Positions 8,374-45,929 of a stretch of DNA of 64,000 nt are shown here, piece after piece. The stretch comes from an uncultured Ruminiclostridium sp. GTDB taxonomy: Bacteria; Bacillota; Clostridia; Oscillospirales; Ruminococcaceae. Both the position numbers and the translations under genes were made by a program. The stretch spans positions 119,247-183,246 of the forward strand of contig CANRFO010000002.1 in the NCBI GenBank assembly GCA_947629925.1. Direction: 5' to 3'. How positions within the stretch are numbered: position 1 is the first letter of the stretch; each line of letters begins with the position of its first letter. The notes below the pieces were generated by a model. It ran no database searches. It had not been told where the DNA came from and saw nothing but the letters and a program-made list of their open reading frames with translations.

Positions 8374-8625
8374 AAATAAAAATAAACACCGCCCCGCAAA
8401 ACTTGCGCGAAGGCGGCGTAAAAGCCACGGTTCCACTCCGATTTTCCCCGTAAAACGGGGCTCTCTCCCTTAACGCGGGAAACGTGCGGGAATAGTCGCA
8501 AAGGTTTTCCTCCCGCCGACTCAGAGCCGCACTTCACGTTCCGAAGCTGCCGTCATCACAGCGCCGACGGCTCTCTGTAAGCTTCCTTTCCGAACGTTAC
8601 TCTGACTCGTCAAAGTCTTTGTAAA
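8374..8625 (-). promoter_or_regulatory. cysteine-specific T-box riboswitch upstream of cysE
   Basis: On the minus strand the leader ends with the T-box signature GGAGTGGAACCGTGG (8425-8440), followed by an intrinsic terminator (8374-8419, ACGCCGCC/GGCGGTGT then a T-rich run). The 5' part forms a long Stem I closed by GAGTCAGAG with CTCTGAGTC. The probable specifier codon is TGC at 8529-8531, in the context GAAG-TGC-GGC just before the 3' strand of Stem I. Uncharged tRNA-Cys should stabilise the antiterminator and switch on cysE-cysS. Boundaries are approximate. Confidence 0.9.
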
Positions 8626-14680: not shown

Positions 14681-14705
14681 AAATGTTTTATGTAACGTAA
14701 AACAT

Positions 14706-14815
14706 TCTGTTCTTTCATCCGGACTTTACCGTCGGTATCGGAATTTCACCGATTCAACCCTTAAAGGCTCGCGGACTTTACCGCCGGTGGGGAATTGCAC
14801 CCCGCCCCGAAACAG
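14706..14815 (-). promoter_or_regulatory. FMN (RFN) riboswitch
   Basis: The minus strand carries the conserved RFN blocks in order: CGGGGCGGGGTGCAATTCC, CACCGGCGGTAAAGTCCGCG, TCGGTGAAATTCCGATACCG and ACGGTAAAGTCCGGATG, closed by CTGTT/AACAG. FMN binding should favour the downstream terminator and shut off ribU. Confidence 0.96.
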
Positions 14816-14826
14816 ATTATGTTTAT

Positions 14827-35938: not shown

Positions 35939-35967
35939 TTGCATTTTTGCACGTTATAGTGTATAAT
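35939..35967 (+). promoter_or_regulatory. promoter-like sequence at the head of the hairpin region
   Basis: TTGCAT (35939-35944) and a consensus TATAAT (35962-35967) are 17 bases apart. The -10 box forms the outer end of a 15-bp inverted repeat. Confidence 0.5.
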
Positions 35968-35994
35968 AAAAACTGTGCTACAGTTTTTATTATA
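35962..35994. repeat. 15-bp perfect inverted repeat with divergent -10 boxes
   Basis: TATAATAAAAACTGT and its exact complement flank the 3 bases GCT. Each strand reads TATAAT at the outer edge, so the repeat could be an operator over divergent promoters or a hairpin. Confidence 0.8.
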
Positions 35995-36351
35995 TTTTTA
36001 TGTCCAACGCCTCGTCATTCTGATTCCATCAGAATGACAACCGGCTTTTGATGGACGATTATATCATATCCTGCGGATATGATATAATAAATAACGACCG
36101 ACAGAGCGGAGCGGAAAACCGCTCCACAAGAAATAATCAGCCTCGGACAGCTGGGTCAAATGCCGACGGCAACGGCAGTTGCCTTATTGATTTAAGCGCA
36201 GGCTATGCGCTTTGGTTTCTAATCCTTGAGGATAGGGTTAAAAATTTTCTTTGAGCGTCAGCTCTCAATATCAATAAGAGTGGTAAAAGTAATTATTTCT
36301 TGCTGTATAGACTCTGAAAGCGGTCACCCGCGTTATTTTGATATTGTATGT
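35968..36351 (+). ncRNA. candidate structured non-coding RNA (hairpin array)
   Basis: The perfect stems are GTCATTCTGA (36014-36038), ATTATATCATATCC (36058-36088), GGAGCGG (36108-36125), GGCAAC (36168-36183), AAGCGCA (36194-36212) and GAGC (36253-36264). CTTATTGAT (36183-36191) pairs with ATCAATAAG (36270-36278) and encloses the last two. The element lies between a promoter-like sequence and a terminator. It does not show the marks I know of RNase P RNA, tmRNA, SRP RNA, 6S RNA or a T-box. It could also be a cluster of palindromic DNA repeats. Confidence 0.4.
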
Positions 36352-36386
36352 ATGCTCAAGGGAAGCTTTTCCTTGAGCATTTTTGC
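36352..36386 (+). terminator. terminator ending the hairpin region
   Basis: ATGCTCAAGG pairs perfectly with CCTTGAGCAT around a 9-base loop, followed by TTTTGCTTGTTTT. It lies just before the ribosome site of the next gene, so it could also act as an attenuator. Confidence 0.8.
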
Positions 36387-36403
36387 TTGTTTTGGAGGAC
36401 GTT

Positions 36404-37267
36404 ATGGCATTTATCGGTATGGTTATCGCAGGAATAGCAGTGATAATATTTATTGCTATCCTTATAATTATGCTTGTTTTGCTTGTTACCGCCATAACGC
36501 TGAAAATCGTGGGGAAAAATAAAAACAGCAAAAAAATGCGCACCGCAGGCAACGTCCTTCTTATAATCGGCATAGTCTTTGCAGTCCCCGTCGTATTGAT
36601 AACAGGTCTTCTGGCTTTCAACTCCATGTATGAGCAGATCACTCTCCCAGATGAAAGTCATAAATATATCCTTATCCAGAATATTACAAAAATGCGCGAG
36701 CTTGCTGAAGAAGGCACAGACAGCTCCGTTGAAGAGCTTGACCGCCTTTTGGAGAAAGAGCCTGATCTTGTGTATTATCTTGACGTGAATAAAAAAGGCG
36801 TCATTGATTTTGGTTTGGAGCAGGGAAATGCAAAGCTCGTTGAAACAGCTTTGGCTCACGGCGCAGAGTTTGACGACCCGCACAGATATGAACATATGGC
36901 ATATTTTCACAACAGTATGGAATATTTCATCGGTTCTTTAAGCGATCGGAAAATAACTCAGGACGATGTGAGAATAATAGAGCTTATGTTTGAGAACAAC
37001 GCTTCCACCGCATATGAGGACACACCGTATCAGGTCTATTCCAACCTTTTCGGAGAAGCGGTATGGGCTGTTCTTTATAACGACGGGGAAGTAACAGACA
37101 CGGAGCTTGAATTTATACAGGTCTTTATCGACAACGGTCTTGATTCTGATGAAAATTTGCTGCTGTATGACGAAAAGCCCTCTAACGTATCTTTTTCGGG
37201 AAAATATTATGATAATGTCAAACAGGACGAAAATTACAGCGCCCTTATGAAAATCATCGGAAAATGA
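36404..37267 (+). CDS. hypothetical membrane protein with ankyrin-like region
   Basis: I do not recognise the family. The 287-residue protein has two N-terminal membrane segments (about 5-33 and 48-72) and a long soluble part. The stretch VIDFGLEQGNAKLVETALAHGAEFDD resembles one ankyrin repeat, and the later DNGLDSDENLL fits a second, degenerate one. ATG at 36404 follows TTGGAGGAC, directly after a terminator-like hairpin. The next two genes follow after 16 and 31 bases. Confidence 0.65.
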   Translation: MAFIGMVIAGIAVIIFIAILIIMLVLLVTAITLKIVGKNKNSKKMRTAGNVLLIIGIVFAVPVVLITGLLAFNSMYEQITLPDESHKYILIQNITKMRELAEEGTDSSVEELDRLLEKEPDLVYYLDVNKKGVIDFGLEQGNAKLVETALAHGAEFDDPHRYEHMAYFHNSMEYFIGSLSDRKITQDDVRIIELMFENNASTAYEDTPYQVYSNLFGEAVWAVLYNDGEVTDTELEFIQVFIDNGLDSDENLLLYDEKPSNVSFSGKYYDNVKQDENYSALMKIIGK

Positions 37268-37283
37268 GTCGAAAGGTTAAAAT

Positions 37284-37712
37284 ATGAACCCGTGGTATTT
37301 TCTTTTTATTGAATTGTTTATTGCCGCTTTTATGATGTTGGGCATTCTTGTATGCATTATATTTTTAGTTATAGCCATAGCAAAAAATAAACCAAAATCA
37401 AAAATAATCGTTTCGCTTTGCATAAACATCGCAGTGATCAGCGGAATAAATTTATTCCAAGCCTCCCACAGCACATATTACGCTTACAACGACCGGGCGA
37501 TACTGGGGCAGGATATAAACGACATTCGTGAAAAATACGGAGAATTTGACGAGGGAACATTGAAACAAGGACAACAGGGCGAAGTAGGTTATTATATCTA
37601 CACCGACAACGGACCTATTATGCCCGACCATTTGAAACATTACTACCGCCTTAAATATGACGAAAACGGAATAGTTTACAAAGTGTATGAATCCTGTCAA
37701 AAGGGCGGGTAA
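37284..37712 (+). CDS. hypothetical small membrane protein with BamE/SmpA-like tail
   Basis: The 142-residue protein has two membrane segments (about 5-32 and 42-55) followed by an 80-residue domain. ILGQDINDIREKYGEFD and the final YYRLKYDENGIVYKVYE recall the small alpha/beta fold of BamE/SmpA-like lipoproteins; this is pattern-based only. GAAAGGTTAAAAT precedes the ATG. It is probably co-transcribed with its neighbours. Confidence 0.6.
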   Translation: MNPWYFLFIELFIAAFMMLGILVCIIFLVIAIAKNKPKSKIIVSLCINIAVISGINLFQASHSTYYAYNDRAILGQDINDIREKYGEFDEGTLKQGQQGEVGYYIYTDNGPIMPDHLKHYYRLKYDENGIVYKVYESCQKGG

Positions 37713-37743
37713 ACATTCAAAACTTTTATCGGAGAGATACGAT

Positions 37744-38346
37744 ATGACCAAGAAACGTTTGGACAGGGACAAAAAATGGTTTTTTCAACCGTTTCCGTAT
37801 TATCAGATGAGAATGGACACGGACGATTTTCACGGTCTTGTCAGTATTATAGAATTATTGGACGGAGAATACTTCTTTTGGGATATGCTTAAAGCCGGCA
37901 GAACTCCCGTATGCGGTAAAGGAATGCTTTGGCTTCAGCTTATTCCCGATAATCAGCATCGTGCGATAACCGCAAAGTTTCTCCCCAAATCCCGAACCGT
38001 TCAAGGCGTAGAGTATTCAAAGTCAGTTTCATTATGGTATGTGGATGTTATAGACGGCTGGGGATATGATGAGGATAAAGTTGCTTATTTTACTGATTTG
38101 TATTTAGACGTATATTTTGATATTGAGGGCGATGTTGTTATAGATGACCGTGATGAATTGGACACCGCCTATAAATCAGGAGAGATATCTGAAGCACAGT
38201 ACCGAATGGCAATTGCGGAAGGAAACGCTATTGTTGAGGATTTGTGTTCAGACACAGAAAAAACACAGCTTTGGTGTGAAAAAATTTTACAGCTTGCTAT
38301 GCAAAGAATTGAAAGAAACGATAGTGTATTCAAGAAGAATGTGTAA
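37744..38346 (+). CDS. DUF402-family protein
   Basis: The 200-residue protein matches the DUF402 pattern: WYVDVIDGWGYDEDKVAYFTDLYLDVYFD followed by DRDELDTAYKSGEISEAQYRMA. Members of this family include nucleoside phosphatases and FAU-1-type RNases, so a nucleotide or RNA role is possible. I start at 37744, after GGAGAGATACG, not at the ORF-track start inside the preceding gene. It ends the three-gene group of unknown role, before speD. Confidence 0.65.
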   Translation: MTKKRLDRDKKWFFQPFPYYQMRMDTDDFHGLVSIIELLDGEYFFWDMLKAGRTPVCGKGMLWLQLIPDNQHRAITAKFLPKSRTVQGVEYSKSVSLWYVDVIDGWGYDEDKVAYFTDLYLDVYFDIEGDVVIDDRDELDTAYKSGEISEAQYRMAIAEGNAIVEDLCSDTEKTQLWCEKILQLAMQRIERNDSVFKKNV

Positions 38347-38399: not shown

Positions 38400-39170
38400 A
38401 TGGAAAACAAACTGCGCCTTTACGGCTTCAACAACCTGACAAAATCCCTCAGCTTCAACATCTACGACGTATGCTACGCCAAGACCGAGCGTGAGCAAAG
38501 GGATTACATCGCCTATATCGACGAGCAGTACAACAGCGAGCGCCTTACCTCCATACTTATGACCTTGACCGAGATGATAGGCGCACAGGTGCTTAATATC
38601 TCCCGTCAGGATTATGAGCCGCAGGGCGCTTCAGTGACCTGCCTCATCTCCGAAAGCTCTAAAAAGAAAAAGGGAGAAAGCGGCGAAACGGTGATAGCTC
38701 ACCTTGACAAAAGCCATGTCACCGTTCACACCTATCCCGAATACCACCCTGAAAACGCCATAGCCACCTTCCGTGTTGACATAGATGTTGCCACCTGCGG
38801 AAAGATAACCCCTCTTTCCACTCTTGATTATCTTATCGGAAGCTTTGACAGCGACATCATAACTATGGATTACCGCATAAGGGGCTTTACCCGTGATATT
38901 TCGGGGAAAAAGCTGTTCACCGACCACAGCATAACCTCTATCCAGGACTACATCGACGACAACACCTTGAAAAAGTACGACGCCGTTGACGTGAACGTGT
39001 ACCAGTCCAATATTTTCCACACAAAAATGCTGATAAAGGAAATAGACCTGCAAAACTACCTGTTCAATCAGGACGTTTACGAACTCCCTCCCAAGACAAG
39101 ACTTGATATAACAAACAATCTCCGCCGTGAAATGATAGAAATTTTCAGCGGCAGCAATATCTACACCTGA
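38400..39170 (+). CDS. speD: S-adenosylmethionine decarboxylase proenzyme
   Basis: SpeD makes decarboxylated SAM, the aminopropyl donor for spermidine synthase. The 256-residue protein is of the E. coli type; self-cleavage before Ser105 in [15 protein letters not shown] would form the pyruvoyl group. AAAGGAAAAATAA precedes the ATG. It is the first gene of the polyamine operon; speA follows after 10 bases. Confidence 0.93.
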
Positions 39171-39180
39171 AGGAAAAATA

Positions 39181-40626
39181 ATGAAACTTGACCAAAACAG
39201 AGCGCCTATCAAAGAGGCGCTGGAGGAACTGCAAAACAACAGGGTGGTACCCTTTGACGTACCCGGGCATAAGCGCGGAAAAGGCAATCCTGAGCTTACC
39301 GAGTTTCTTGGAAAGCGCTGTATGAGCCTTGACGTGAACTCAATGCGCCCGCTGGACAATCTCTGCCACCCCGTTTCTGTGATAAAGGAGGCGGAGGAGC
39401 TTGCCGCAGACGCATTCGGCGCAGGCTACGCCTTTTTTATGGTTGGAGGGACTACCTCTGCCGTGCAGGCTATGGTACTTTTTGCCGCAAAGCGCGGCGA
39501 AAAAATAATCCTCCCCCGCAACGTCCACAGAAGTGTTATAAACGCAATGGTATTGAGCGGCGCAGTTCCTGTTTATGTAAATCCCGCGGTTGATAAGCGC
39601 CTCGGCATTTCTCTCGGCATGAGCGTCAGCGACGTTGAAGCCGCCATAAGGGAAAACCCCGACGCAAAGGCTATCCTTGTGAACAATCCAACCTATTACG
39701 GCATTTGCAGCGACATAAAGAAAATAACCGACCTTGCTCATTCCCACAATATGCTTATGCTTGCGGACGAGGCTCACGGAACGCACTTTTATTTCGGCGA
39801 GGACCTGCCCTTGAGCGCAATGGCGGCGGGTGCGGATATGGCGGCGGTAAGTATGCACAAAAGCGGCGGCAGCCTTACCCAAAGCAGCTTTCTCCTTACA
39901 GGTCAGAACATAAATCCCGCAAGCGTCCGCCAGATAATCAACCTCACCCAGACCACCAGCGGCTCGTATCTTTTCATGTCCAGCCTTGACATAAGCCGCC
40001 AGAATCTTGCCGTAAAAGGAAAGGAGATCTTCCGCCGCGTCTGCTCCCTCGCCGAATATGCAAGGGAAGAGATAAACAGGATAGGGGATTACTACGCTTA
40101 TTCCCGTGAAATAATAAACGGCGACAGCATTTACGATTTTGACGCCACAAAGCTGTCCATAAACACCATAGACGTCGGCTTGGCGGGAATAGAGGTATAC
40201 GACATTCTTCGCGACGATTACGACATACAGATAGAGTTCGGCGATATGGGCAATATTTTGGCCTATATCAGCGTCGGTGACAGGGAACGCGACATCGAGC
40301 GCCTTGTGGGAGCGTTGTCCGAGATACGCCGCCGCTATAAAAAGGACAAAAGCGGTATGCTCATTTCCGAGTATATCAGCCCCGCAGTTGAAATGACCCC
40401 ACAGGAGGCTTTCTATGCGGAGAAAGAATCCGTTCCCCTTGAGGACAGCGAGGGCAGAATATGCAGCGAGTTCGTTATGTGCTATCCACCCGGTATACCC
40501 ATTCTTTCCCCCGGCGAAAGGATAACGAACGACATAATCCGCTATATAAAATACGCCAAGGAAAAGGGCTGCTTCCTGACAGGAGCCGAGGATATGAACA
40601 CCGACAGGCTCAACGTCACACGGTAA
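39181..40626 (+). CDS. speA: biosynthetic arginine decarboxylase (Orn/Lys/Arg decarboxylase fold I)
   Basis: The 481-residue PLP enzyme has VPFDVPGHKRGKGNPE at the N-terminus, the DEAHGTHF block, and the PLP lysine Lys227 in SMHKSGGSL. It resembles Bacillus SpeA. The agmatinase gene in the same operon supports arginine as substrate, giving agmatine; lysine or ornithine specificity cannot be excluded from sequence alone. It lies 10 bases after speD and 19 before speE. Confidence 0.88.
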   Translation: MKLDQNRAPIKEALEELQNNRVVPFDVPGHKRGKGNPELTEFLGKRCMSLDVNSMRPLDNLCHPVSVIKEAEELAADAFGAGYAFFMVGGTTSAVQAMVLFAAKRGEKIILPRNVHRSVINAMVLSGAVPVYVNPAVDKRLGISLGMSVSDVEAAIRENPDAKAILVNNPTYYGICSDIKKITDLAHSHNMLMLADEAHGTHFYFGEDLPLSAMAAGADMAAVSMHKSGGSLTQSSFLLTGQNINPASVRQIINLTQTTSGSYLFMSSLDISRQNLAVKGKEIFRRVCSLAEYAREEINRIGDYYAYSREIINGDSIYDFDATKLSINTIDVGLAGIEVYDILRDDYDIQIEFGDMGNILAYISVGDRERDIERLVGALSEIRRRYKKDKSGMLISEYISPAVEMTPQEAFYAEKESVPLEDSEGRICSEFVMCYPPGIPILSPGERITNDIIRYIKYAKEKGCFLTGAEDMNTDRLNVTR

Positions 40627-40645: not shown

Positions 40646-41506
40646 ATGGATCTATGGTTCAGCGAGTTTCACGCCAAAGGCGTAAAGCTCTCTATAAAGG
40701 TAACAAAACAGCTTTGCTCCGTGCAAAGCGATTTTCAGCAGATAGATGTGTTTGATTCCGAGGAATTCGGAAAATTTCTCACTCTTGACGGCTATATGAT
40801 GCTCACACAGCGTGACGAGTTTATTTATCACGAAATGATAACCCACGTTCCAATGGCTGTAAATCCCGACATAAAAAATGTCCTTGTTATAGGAGCAGGG
40901 GACGGGGGAGCAGTCCGCGAGCTTGCCCGCTATAAGACTATCGAAAAGATAGATTTAGTTGAAATAGACGAAAAGGTGGTGGAGGTCTGCAAGGAATATC
41001 TTCCCGATATTGCCTGCTGCTTCGATGACCCAAGACTTACCGTTTATTATCAGGACGGGCTTAAATTTGTCCGCAGGTGCGAAAATGAATACGACCTTAT
41101 AATCGTTGACAGCACTGACCCTTTCGGACCGGGAGAAGGACTGTTCACAAAGGAATTTTACGGCAACTGCTGTAAGGCTCTTACCAAAGACGGAATAATG
41201 GTGAACCAGTGCGAAAGTCCGTTCTATCAGGAGGACAGAGTCGCTATGCAGCGAGCTCACAAGCGCATTGTTGAGAGCTTTCCCATAAGCAAGGTATATC
41301 AGGCGCATATCCCCACCTACCCGTCTGGACACTGGCTTTTCGGCTTTGCAAGCAAGCACTTTCACCCCATAAAGGATTACGACGGCAAACGCTGGCAGGA
41401 GCTGGGCATTTCCACCCGCTACTACAATCCTCAACTTCATATCGGCGCATTTGCCCTGCCCAATTACGTTCAGGAACTGCTTGAAAACGTGGAGGGGATA
41501 GTGTGA
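40646..41506 (+). CDS. speE: spermidine synthase (polyamine aminopropyltransferase)
   Basis: SpeE transfers the aminopropyl group from decarboxylated SAM to putrescine. The 286-residue protein has the substrate gate DEFIYHEMITHVP, the nucleotide-binding GAGDGGAVREL, and catalytic DSTDPFGPG. AAAAAGGAGATAAT precedes the ATG. The stop overlaps the speB start. Confidence 0.95.
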   Translation: MDLWFSEFHAKGVKLSIKVTKQLCSVQSDFQQIDVFDSEEFGKFLTLDGYMMLTQRDEFIYHEMITHVPMAVNPDIKNVLVIGAGDGGAVRELARYKTIEKIDLVEIDEKVVEVCKEYLPDIACCFDDPRLTVYYQDGLKFVRRCENEYDLIIVDSTDPFGPGEGLFTKEFYGNCCKALTKDGIMVNQCESPFYQEDRVAMQRAHKRIVESFPISKVYQAHIPTYPSGHWLFGFASKHFHPIKDYDGKRWQELGISTRYYNPQLHIGAFALPNYVQELLENVEGIV

Positions 41507-42357
41507 TGAAAGAAAAAAACATAGAGACCTTTATCGCCTGCGACAGCGATTACGAAACGGCAAAAGCCGTGATATTCGGCGCTCCCTTTGACGGCACCAC
41601 CAGCTACCGTCCGGGCACCCGCTTCGGCAGCAAAGCGATAAGAAGCGAAAGTTACGGAATAGAAACGTACAGCCCCTATCAGGACAAGGACCTTGAGGAC
41701 ATCGCCGTTTTTGACGGCGGCGAGCTTGATTTTCCTTTTGGCAACACTCAGCGCGTCCTGCAAATGATAGAGGAATACACGGCTGATATCCTGAATGACA
41801 ACAAGCTCCCTGTTATGATCGGCGGGGAACACCTTGTGACTTTGGGAGCGGTAAGAGCCGCTGCGAAGAAATACCCCGACCTGCATATAATTCATTTTGA
41901 CGCACACGCCGACCTGCGCCAGGAATATCTGGGCGAGGAGCTGTCCCATGCCTGCGTTCTGCGCCGCTGCTATGACATTTTAGGCGACGGCAGGATATTT
42001 CAGTTCGGTATCCGAAGCGGCGACCGTGAGGAATTTCGCTTTGCCGCAAATCACACATATATGAATAAATTCGACCTTGATACCCTTGACGAAATATGTG
42101 ATAAATTAAAAGACAAGCCCGTATATTTTACCATAGACCTTGACGTGCTGGATTCCTCCGTTTTCCCCGGAACAGGAACTCCCGAAGCGGGAGGGATATG
42201 TTTCAGCGAGCTTATACGGGGCATAATCAAGGTGGGAAAAACAAACGTAGTGGCGGCGGATATAAACGAGCTTTCTCCGCCCTACGACCCGTCAGGCGTC
42301 AGCACTGCCGCCGCCTGTAAGACCCTGCGTGAGCTTTTGCTTGCAGTTGTCCGCTGA
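41506..42357 (+). CDS. speB: agmatinase
   Basis: Agmatinase hydrolyses agmatine to putrescine and urea. The 283-residue ureohydrolase has the Mn ligands in GGEHLVT, HFDAHADLR and TIDLDVLDSS, which fit agmatinase rather than arginase. I use the ATG at 41506, which overlaps the speE stop (TGATG); GGAGGGG precedes it. With SpeA it supplies putrescine to both spermidine routes in this operon. Confidence 0.93.
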   Translation: MKEKNIETFIACDSDYETAKAVIFGAPFDGTTSYRPGTRFGSKAIRSESYGIETYSPYQDKDLEDIAVFDGGELDFPFGNTQRVLQMIEEYTADILNDNKLPVMIGGEHLVTLGAVRAAAKKYPDLHIIHFDAHADLRQEYLGEELSHACVLRRCYDILGDGRIFQFGIRSGDREEFRFAANHTYMNKFDLDTLDEICDKLKDKPVYFTIDLDVLDSSVFPGTGTPEAGGICFSELIRGIIKVGKTNVVAADINELSPPYDPSGVSTAAACKTLRELLLAVVR

Positions 42358-43579: not shown

Positions 43580-44788
43580 ATGGGAAAATGTCTTATAATC
43601 GGCTGCGGCGGCGTAGCGGGCGTAGCTATCCACAAATGCTGTCAGAACGACGAAGTGTTTGAGGGAATAATGATAGCCAGCCGCACCAAATCAAAATGCG
43701 ACAAAATAAAGGCTGAAATAGAGGCGGCGGGCAAAAGCAAAACTGTTATCGAAACCGCTCAGGTGAACGCCGACAACGTGGACGAGCTTATAGCGCTGAT
43801 AAACAGCTACAAGCCCGACGTTGTGCTGAACCTCGCCCTGCCTTATCAGGACCTTACCATAATGGATGCCTGCCTTGCCACAAAAACAAATTATGTTGAC
43901 ACCGCAAACTATGAGCCGCCCGATACCGCAAAATTCGAGTACAAATGGCAATGGGCTTACCGTGAAAAATTCAAAGAGGCAGGTATAACCGCCCTTTTGG
44001 GCAGCGGCTTTGACCCCGGCGTTACGGGAGTATTCTGCGCCTATGCTATGAAACACTACTTTGACGAGATAAACTATATCGATATTCTCGACTGCAACGG
44101 CGGCGACCACGGCTATCCCTTTGCCACCAACTTCAACCCCGAAATAAATATCCGTGAAGTAAGCGCAAACGGCAGCTACTGGGAAAACGGCGGCTGGGTA
44201 GAGACCAAGCCTATGGAGATAAAGCGTGTTTACAACTTTGAGGGCGTTGGCGAAAAGGACATGTACCTGCTCCACCATGAGGAGCTTGAGAGCCTTGCCC
44301 TGAACATCAAGGGAATAAAGCGCATACGTTTCTTCATGACCTTCGGACAAAGCTATTTAACTCACCTGAAATGCCTTGAAAACGTGGGAATGACTTCGAT
44401 AGAACCCATAGAATTTGAGGGTAAACAGATAGTGCCTCTGCAATTTTTGAAAGCCGTTCTCCCCGACCCCGCCTCTCTCGGTCCCCGCACCAAGGGCAAA
44501 ACCAACATCGGCTGCATAATGCAGGGCAAAAAGGACGGCAAGGACGTAAAATATTACGTCTACAACATCTGTGACCATCAGGAATGTTACAAAGAGGTAG
44601 GAAGTCAGGCTGTAAGCTATACCACTGGCGTTCCCGCCATGATAGGCGCAATGCTGCTGATGAATAAAACATGGAGCGGTGCAGGCGTATTCAACATTGA
44701 GGAATTTGACCCCGACCCGTTTATGGACGCGCTGAACAAGTGGGGGCTCCCTTGGAAAGAAACCTTTGACCCCACGCTGGTAGACTGA
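43580..44788 (+). CDS. carboxy(nor)spermidine dehydrogenase (saccharopine-dehydrogenase family)
   Basis: This 402-residue enzyme has an NAD(P) Rossmann motif at the N-terminus (CLIIGCGGVAGVAI) and the family blocks ALPYQDLTIMDACL, GFDPGVTGVFCAYA and GGDHGYPFATNF, which match CASDH/Lys1-type proteins. CASDH condenses putrescine with aspartate semialdehyde and reduces the product to carboxyspermidine. The decarboxylase gene follows after 4 bases. The neighbouring polyamine genes exclude a lysine-pathway reading in practice. Confidence 0.88.
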   Translation: MGKCLIIGCGGVAGVAIHKCCQNDEVFEGIMIASRTKSKCDKIKAEIEAAGKSKTVIETAQVNADNVDELIALINSYKPDVVLNLALPYQDLTIMDACLATKTNYVDTANYEPPDTAKFEYKWQWAYREKFKEAGITALLGSGFDPGVTGVFCAYAMKHYFDEINYIDILDCNGGDHGYPFATNFNPEINIREVSANGSYWENGGWVETKPMEIKRVYNFEGVGEKDMYLLHHEELESLALNIKGIKRIRFFMTFGQSYLTHLKCLENVGMTSIEPIEFEGKQIVPLQFLKAVLPDPASLGPRTKGKTNIGCIMQGKKDGKDVKYYVYNICDHQECYKEVGSQAVSYTTGVPAMIGAMLLMNKTWSGAGVFNIEEFDPDPFMDALNKWGLPWKETFDPTLVD

Positions 44789-44792
44789 TTTT

Positions 44793-45929
44793 ATGAACGA
44801 TTTTGAACATCTTATGAGCCTAAATACCCCCGCCTATATAATTGACGGGGAACAGCTCAGAAAAAATCTTGAACTTCTTCATCAGGTGGAAACCGCCAGC
44901 GGCGCACACATTCTCCTTGCGCAAAAATGCTACTCCGTCTATCAGACCTATCCGCTGATAGGGAAGTACATCAGCGGCTGCACTGCCAGCGGACTTTACG
45001 AGGCGCGTCTGGGTCACGAGGAAATGGGAAAGGAAAATCACATCTTTTCCCCCGCCTATACTGATGACGAGTTTGACGAGATACTTGACATCTGCGACCA
45101 CATCAGCTTCAACAGCGTTTCCCAGTGGGAAAAATTCAGGCAGAGTGTCCAAAGCTCCCCCAAAAAGCCCAGCTGCGGTATAAGGGTAAACCCCGAACAC
45201 TCCACCCAGTCCCACGGAATATACGACCCCTGCGCTCCTTTTTCAAGGCTCGGAGCCACCCGCAGCAGCTTTAAAAACGGATTTCCCGACGGCATAGAGG
45301 GACTTCATTTTCACACTCTTTGCGAGCAGAACGCTGACGCTTTGGCTGAAACGGCGAAAGCCTTTGAGGAAAAATTCGCCGATTTTCTTCCCAAAATAAA
45401 ATGGCTGAATATGGGTGGCGGACATCACATAACCCGTTCTGATTACGATATAGACCTGCTTGTAAAAACCGTAAAGCACTTCACCGAAACCTACGGCGTG
45501 ACCGTTTACCTTGAGCCCGGCGAAGCGATAGCGCTTAACGCAGGCCGGCTTGCGGCGACCGTTCTTGACACCGTACACAACGGTATGGATATTGCTATAC
45601 TTGACGCCTCCGCCGCCTGTCATATGCCCGATGTGCTGGAAATGCCCTACCGACCCAATATCGTAAACGCAGGCGAACCAAACGAAAAGCCCTATACTTA
45701 CCGCCTTGGCGGGAACACCTGCCTTGCGGGGGATATTATCGGGGATTACAGCTTTGACCGCCCGCTGAAAGCAGGCGACCGCCTTTTCTTTGAGGATATG
45801 GCAATCTACTCCATGGTAAAAAACAACACCTTCAACGGAATGGCTCTTCCATGGATATACTTTTATTCCGACGGAAAACTGAAGCTTTTAAAAAGCTTCG
45901 GATACGAAGATTTTAAAGGAAGGCTTTAA
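44793..45929 (+). CDS. nspC: carboxy(nor)spermidine decarboxylase
   Basis: NspC is a PLP-dependent alanine-racemase-fold decarboxylase that converts carboxyspermidine to spermidine. The 378-residue protein has the PLP lysine in LLAQKCYS (about residue 45), GLHFHTLCEQ, a glycine-rich MGGGHHIT and the LEPGEAIA block. No clear ribosome site precedes the ATG; with the CASDH stop 4 bases away, translation is probably coupled. It closes the polyamine operon at a strong terminator. Confidence 0.92.
   Translation: MNDFEHLMSLNTPAYIIDGEQLRKNLELLHQVETASGAHILLAQKCYSVYQTYPLIGKYISGCTASGLYEARLGHEEMGKENHIFSPAYTDDEFDEILDICDHISFNSVSQWEKFRQSVQSSPKKPSCGIRVNPEHSTQSHGIYDPCAPFSRLGATRSSFKNGFPDGIEGLHFHTLCEQNADALAETAKAFEEKFADFLPKIKWLNMGGGHHITRSDYDIDLLVKTVKHFTETYGVTVYLEPGEAIALNAGRLAATVLDTVHNGMDIAILDASAACHMPDVLEMPYRPNIVNAGEPNEKPYTYRLGGNTCLAGDIIGDYSFDRPLKAGDRLFFEDMAIYSMVKNNTFNGMALPWIYFYSDGKLKLLKSFGYEDFKGRL

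Follow-up and report, generated by a model that had tools for sequence, protein, structure and literature searches.

A candidate polyamine riboswitch with a transcription terminator in the 5′ leader of polyamine genes of an uncultured Ruminiclostridium and other Bacillota

The window (the whole stretch of DNA that was analyzed, 64,000 nucleotides from an uncultured Ruminiclostridium sp.) carries a set of polyamine genes on the plus strand, preceded by a promoter-like sequence, a palindromic repeat, and a structured RNA, as follows.

35939-35967, plus strand: promoter-like TTGCAT-N17-TATAAT
35971-36091, plus strand: dispersed palindromic repeat of 121 bp with three hairpins, separating the −10 box from the RNA
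36092-36390, plus strand: leader RNA with its own terminator
36404-38346, plus strand: three small ORFs (36404-37267, 37284-37712, and 37744-38346) between the leader and speD
38400-39170, plus strand: speD, S-adenosylmethionine decarboxylase (TIGR03331, 412.8 bits; cutoff, 255.8)
39181-40626, plus strand: Orn/Lys/Arg decarboxylase of the speA type (PF01276, E = 4.8e-66)
40646-41506, plus strand: speE, spermidine synthase (TIGR00417, 320.5 bits; cutoff, 249.6)
41503-42357, plus strand: speB, agmatinase (TIGR01230, 284.3 bits; cutoff, 174.3)
43580-44788, plus strand: carboxynorspermidine synthase-like gene (NF043000, 416 bits, below the cutoff of 800)
44793-45929, plus strand: nspC (TIGR01047, 495.9 bits; cutoff, 409)

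Family profile searches of the three small ORFs gave no match above cutoff, and the start of the first looks membrane-bound. Elsewhere in the window, an FMN riboswitch (14704-14818) and a T-box leader (8406-8622), minus strand, are clear Rfam matches.

An earlier note on this DNA had drawn attention to the compact perfect stems of 6 to 15 bp in the gene-free segment 35939-36386 and to a terminator that follows them. The stems were found where noted, give or take a few bases, as were the terminator and the TTGCAT (35939-35944) and TATAAT (35962-35967) with 17 bases between them.

35962/35980: perfect stem, 15 bp
36014/36028: perfect stem, 11 bp
36058/36075: perfect stem, 14 bp
36108/36119: perfect stem, 7 bp
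36168/36178: perfect stem, 6 bp
36352/36368: terminator stem, 13 bp with one mismatch

The folding energy of this segment is −152.7 kcal/mol, against −103.8 ± 5.5 kcal/mol for dinucleotide shuffles (z = −9.0; 0/100 shuffles). Searched alone against Rfam, the window gave no match above threshold at the segment, in keeping with the statement that marks of RNase P RNA, tmRNA, SRP RNA, 6S RNA, and T-box are missing. The note had offered two readings, an undescribed structured RNA of about 400 nt or a cluster of palindromic repeats, and each holds for part of the segment: the 5′ third is a 121-bp repeat insertion, whereas the 3′ two thirds form a structured RNA of only about 300 nt including its terminator.

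Several observations bear on the 5′ third. The sequence TATAATAAA occurs twice, at 35962-35970 and 36083-36091, 121 bases apart, as a 9-bp duplication flanking the repeat. At the same locus of a genus-level relative (G005, locus L005), the first three hairpins are exactly missing, TATAATAAA runs straight into the RNA, and the aligned promoter-like sequence lies immediately 5′ of it. Relatives of the 121-bp repeat were found in 12 of the 60 genus genomes searched, its own genome among them, with 24 matches in one genome (G765). Given the absence from G005, the duplication of TATAATAAA, and the related copies in the genus, we read the 5′ hairpins (35962-36091) as an inserted or expanded dispersed repeat outside the RNA. 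The spacing of the first stems, previously suggested as a sign of repeats, does stem from the inserted repeat, but the repeat is no part of the RNA. Repeat copies start and finish in sequence that resembles TGATATAAT, which is an extended −10 box (window 35962-36091, L008, L023, and many G765 sites), and are often paired about 100 to 120 bp apart; the dispersed repeat may contain a promoter element or give rise to a second copy of one.

A blastn search with 36092-36392 returned homologues, 58 to 76% identical, from other families of the order. Ten of these homologues were used to build a covariance model (R1), which was later improved (R2). The aptamer-like domain of the window scores 120.9 bits with R1 and 96.5 bits with R2, but these scores are not independent, since the window sequence belongs to the training sets of both models; the blastn homology is independent. 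Of 147 genomes of the order, 38 contain the RNA according to R1, always as a single copy; in the class, R1 matched 39 of 292 genomes, again with one copy each except in G435, where two partial copies stand in tandem (G435:C99:37496-37891), possibly a tandem riboswitch. Across the phylum, R2 matched 18 of 300 genomes, one copy per genome. When the genome collection was scanned for an exact 20-base motif, 80/80 loci matched the full model, in genera that include Paenibacillus, Bacillus, Aquibacillus, Acetobacterium, Blautia, Gemmiger, and Flavonifractor. One copy (L097) lies in a MAG labeled Salinivirgaceae (Bacteroidota) and is probably a binning error or a transfer.

The architecture of the RNA is built from the following elements.

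36092-36316, plus strand: aptamer-like domain of the leader RNA
36096-36157, plus strand: P1, GACC (36096-36099) with GGTC (36154-36157), with two-sided changes; the RF02440 equivalent
36168-36183, plus strand: P2, GGCAAC/GTTGCC, 6/6 pairs changed on both sides in homologues
36184-36277, plus strand: P3, TTATTGAT (36184-36191) with ATCAATAA (36270-36277), closing a multibranch domain
36277-36315, plus strand: P4 (AGAGT/ACTCT) and P5 (AGTAA/TTGCT) with conserved AAGAGTRGTAAAAGT
36249-36256, plus strand: antiterminator strand CTTTGAGC, complementary to 36354-36361 (duplex, −16.9 kcal/mol)
36352-36384, plus strand: intrinsic terminator, whose 5′ arm GCTCAAGG (36354-36361) is common to the antiterminator

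P1 encloses a hairpin (36108-36125) and a conserved GGACAGCYGGGUC element. Across 100 aligned members, standard pairs fill 95.3% of the pair cells, and two-sided changes affect 32 of 52 pairs (409 cells, against 113 expected by shuffling and at most 89 on sliding); the covariation score reaches 0.239, compared with 0.110 for shuffled and at most 0.052 for slid alignments. The alignment had itself been fitted to this proposed fold. Examined for random changes within the stems, the homologue alignment leaves the structure unrefuted: the stems covary. Support is good for P1 and its inner hairpin, for P2, and for the hairpins P3a and P3c. P3 corresponds to the 9-bp long-range pair described earlier, CTTATTGAT (36183-36191) with ATCAATAAG (36270-36278); it is paired in 99/99 distinct sequences but is nearly invariant, so that covariation gives no test of it, and it is absent altogether from the unliganded energy model of the window member. 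G-U pairs are strongly conserved (for example, U-G in 95/98 sequences at columns 324/515) and, read from the opposite strand, would turn into A-C mismatches; this identifies the plus strand as the RNA. From the initial alignment of 10 sequences, RNAalifold missed most helices, and the CGG/CCG helix that it proposed and that R1 contained was replaced in R2 by P1 (UGACC/GGUCA). Between the window and G005, core and linker are identical (36127-36351; 225/225), while neighboring genes are 94 to 95% identical. Within this region, 36127-36137 and 36292-36302 show an 11-bp perfect complementarity, CAAGAAATAAT/ATTATTTCTTG, found partly in L006 and L007; judged from its sequence, it would compete with P5 in the window lineage only.

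A simple search found a candidate hairpin with a T-run downstream of the RNA in 133 of 135 loci, but because this search takes in some weak hairpins, later tests used the subset at or below −11 kcal/mol. The best partner of the terminator 5′ arm is one sharp site, the P3b 3′ strand, where the mean duplex energy is −11.3 kcal/mol; most other sites give about −2 to −6 kcal/mol. Arms paired with their own partners at −12.5 kcal/mol, compared with −10.4 kcal/mol for swapped pairs (0/2,000 permutations) and −7.4 kcal/mol for shuffled arms. In nearly every member, the arm has its partner in the 3′ strand of a helix inside the aptamer, and the two covary; the expression platform and the aptamer are mutually exclusive. 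In the window, 36249-36256 is the counterpart of this P3b strand, and CTTTGAGC pairs with GCTCAAGG where canonical members have ACUUG/CAAGU, so that the sequence has changed and the pairing has been kept. In an energy model of the growing transcript, the antiterminator has a probability of 0.9999 at 36372, while the 3′ arm of the terminator is still unfinished, and by 36380 the terminator has a probability of 0.99; the window member is predicted by this model to be a balanced switch. Pairing between the P3 3′ strand and the linker found no support as a general feature (−5.8 kcal/mol, against −5.6 ± 0.16 kcal/mol for shuffles), and this alternative helix occurs in the window lineage only.

We examined the gene context of the 131 loci whose downstream sequence extends for 600 nt or more. 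In 130 of them, a polyamine gene lies no more than 464 nt beyond the RNA, and the first recognized gene, which starts at a median of 142 nt 3′ of the RNA, is speD in 58, an Orn/Lys/Arg decarboxylase in 41, potA (spermidine/putrescine importer) in 18, and of the carboxynorspermidine synthase type in 13. The sole exception (L145) holds a partial RNA and lacks a polyamine gene across the 4.5 kb examined. Among genomes of the order, the RNA and speD co-occur (23/35 versus 15/112; Fisher p = 6e-9, a nominal value since the genomes are related).

Part of this RNA has a counterpart in Rfam. Canonical members match RF02440 (SpF59_sRNA, "ldcC RNA"), a 54-nt model of the first stem region of the leader, over their 5′ 54 nt at 67 to 74 bits, whereas the window member scores 23.3 bits, below the gathering threshold of 37.2, and its own genome gave no match. 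Through its canonical relatives, the RNA is not entirely undescribed. The weak match of the window, one of many chance-like lines, became meaningful through the matches of these homologues, among which L012 links the two (blastn to the window, E = 5e-8; 67.2 bits to RF02440). All of the other phylum-level RF02440 loci (9/9) contain the full RNA, and Lactococcus lactis, in the control set, is RF02440 positive. RF02440 spans about a quarter of the RNA and is filed as an sRNA gene; its "ldcC RNA" label shows that the gene association had already been noticed by someone. F59, also named SN20, srn235, and Spd_sr49, is the pneumococcal original and lies upstream of SP_0916. It sits between SP0915 and SP0916 in Streptococcus pneumoniae (PMC3395615), and SP_0916 is an arginine decarboxylase (PMC7531197). 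F59 has been listed as an sRNA with a lung phenotype (PMC4387999) and, in 2025, as a putative sRNA that all 385 strains carry (PMC12323649); the literature searched describes no cis-regulatory role for it.

Among described systems, the SAM-I-variant spermidine riboswitch of Salvail et al. (2023; PMC10853860) resembles the leader in its targets (speB, speD, speE, and ldcC), its transcription terminator, and its OFF logic. It differs in having the four-stem SAM-I architecture and in being known from 13 examples in Bacilli and relatives, plus metagenomes (PMC10853860), whereas the window RNA has a far wider distribution among the genomes searched. Searches for the SAM-I family gave no match in the window (E up to 5) or in the canonical Paenibacillus dendrobii member L099 (E up to 2). 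The odc1 and potE motifs also lie near polyamine genes but are set apart by their descriptions, odc1 being a small uORF-type element with a pseudoknot and potE a weak candidate without an expression platform (PMC8632094); they were the only polyamine-linked motifs found in the discovery papers searched. The speF motif, likewise a leader of a polyamine gene (ornithine decarboxylase), whose ligand was not found (PMC11477304), is alphaproteobacterial and gave no cmscan match on the window RNA.

Taken as a whole, we think it likely that 36092-36390 is the 5′ leader of a polyamine operon and acts as a transcription-terminating riboswitch, with spermidine its most likely ligand. The parts of this reading differ in strength. 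That the RNA is a cis-acting leader of polyamine genes with a terminator and antiterminator, instead of a free-standing RNA gene, is very likely, and we are fairly confident that it would sense a metabolite directly. When polyamine is scarce, the P3b-type 3′ strand (36249-36256) would pair with the terminator 5′ arm, and this antiterminator would let transcription read on into speD and the genes after it; with polyamine bound, the aptamer would retain the strand, the terminator would form, and transcription would stop, as in an OFF switch. Since synthesis genes (speD/speE; carboxynorspermidine synthase/nspC) and import genes share the RNA, polyamines would be the only sensible common signal. 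Polyamines bind RNA nonspecifically, which counts against this reading. Spermidine in particular has somewhat better than even chances by analogy with the SAM-I-derived class (PMC10853860), and putrescine or another polyamine is possible.

The same leader might instead sense another molecule of the pathway, namely, putrescine, agmatine, arginine, SAM, decarboxylated SAM, or MTA. Enzymes that use all of these are encoded in the operons behind the leader, and the published spermidine class itself comes from a SAM aptamer (PMC10853860). Yet potABCD-type import operons and operons that begin with carboxynorspermidine synthase have the same RNA, and a SAM-derived or arginine signal would not be common to all of these targets; we regard this alternative as unlikely, at perhaps one chance in several. 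Binding of a protein, which is common among leaders in general, could also control the terminator, but very high conservation across a compact multibranch domain some 200 nt long is what aptamers typically show, and a single-copy RNA with a self-contained terminator/antiterminator requires no protein, which makes protein control improbable. A trans-acting small RNA, as F59/SN20/srn235 has been reported to be (PMC3395615, PMC4387999, PMC12323649), is very improbable for an RNA that, at 130 of 131 loci, lies directly 5′ of polyamine genes on the same strand and whose antiterminator covaries; a leader ended at its terminator would itself resemble an sRNA. Attenuators that encode a peptide occur before biosynthetic operons too, but at most 4 of 100 members keep any one of the six frames open, and lengths show no constraint modulo 3, so that without a conserved reading frame a leader peptide was rejected and has next to no probability. 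Least probable of all is a functionless cluster of palindromic repeats, true of the 5′ 121 bp but refuted for 36092-36390 by covariation and single-copy distribution, and at odds with its tie to polyamine genes.

Polyamine riboswitches have been sought for years. To our knowledge, one validated class is known, and it is rare and derived from SAM-I. Further classes were expected by Salvail et al. (PMC10853860). The RNA described here occurs far more widely, combines a defined aptamer with an expression platform, and stands before genes of both synthesis and uptake, which makes the question of polyamine riboswitches directly testable. On balance, we lean toward its being a second natural class of spermidine riboswitch, widespread in Bacillota and with an aptamer unrelated to SAM-I, and that F59 would be one of its terminated transcripts. 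If this is true, the putative pneumococcal sRNA F59 becomes the leader of a polyamine operon.
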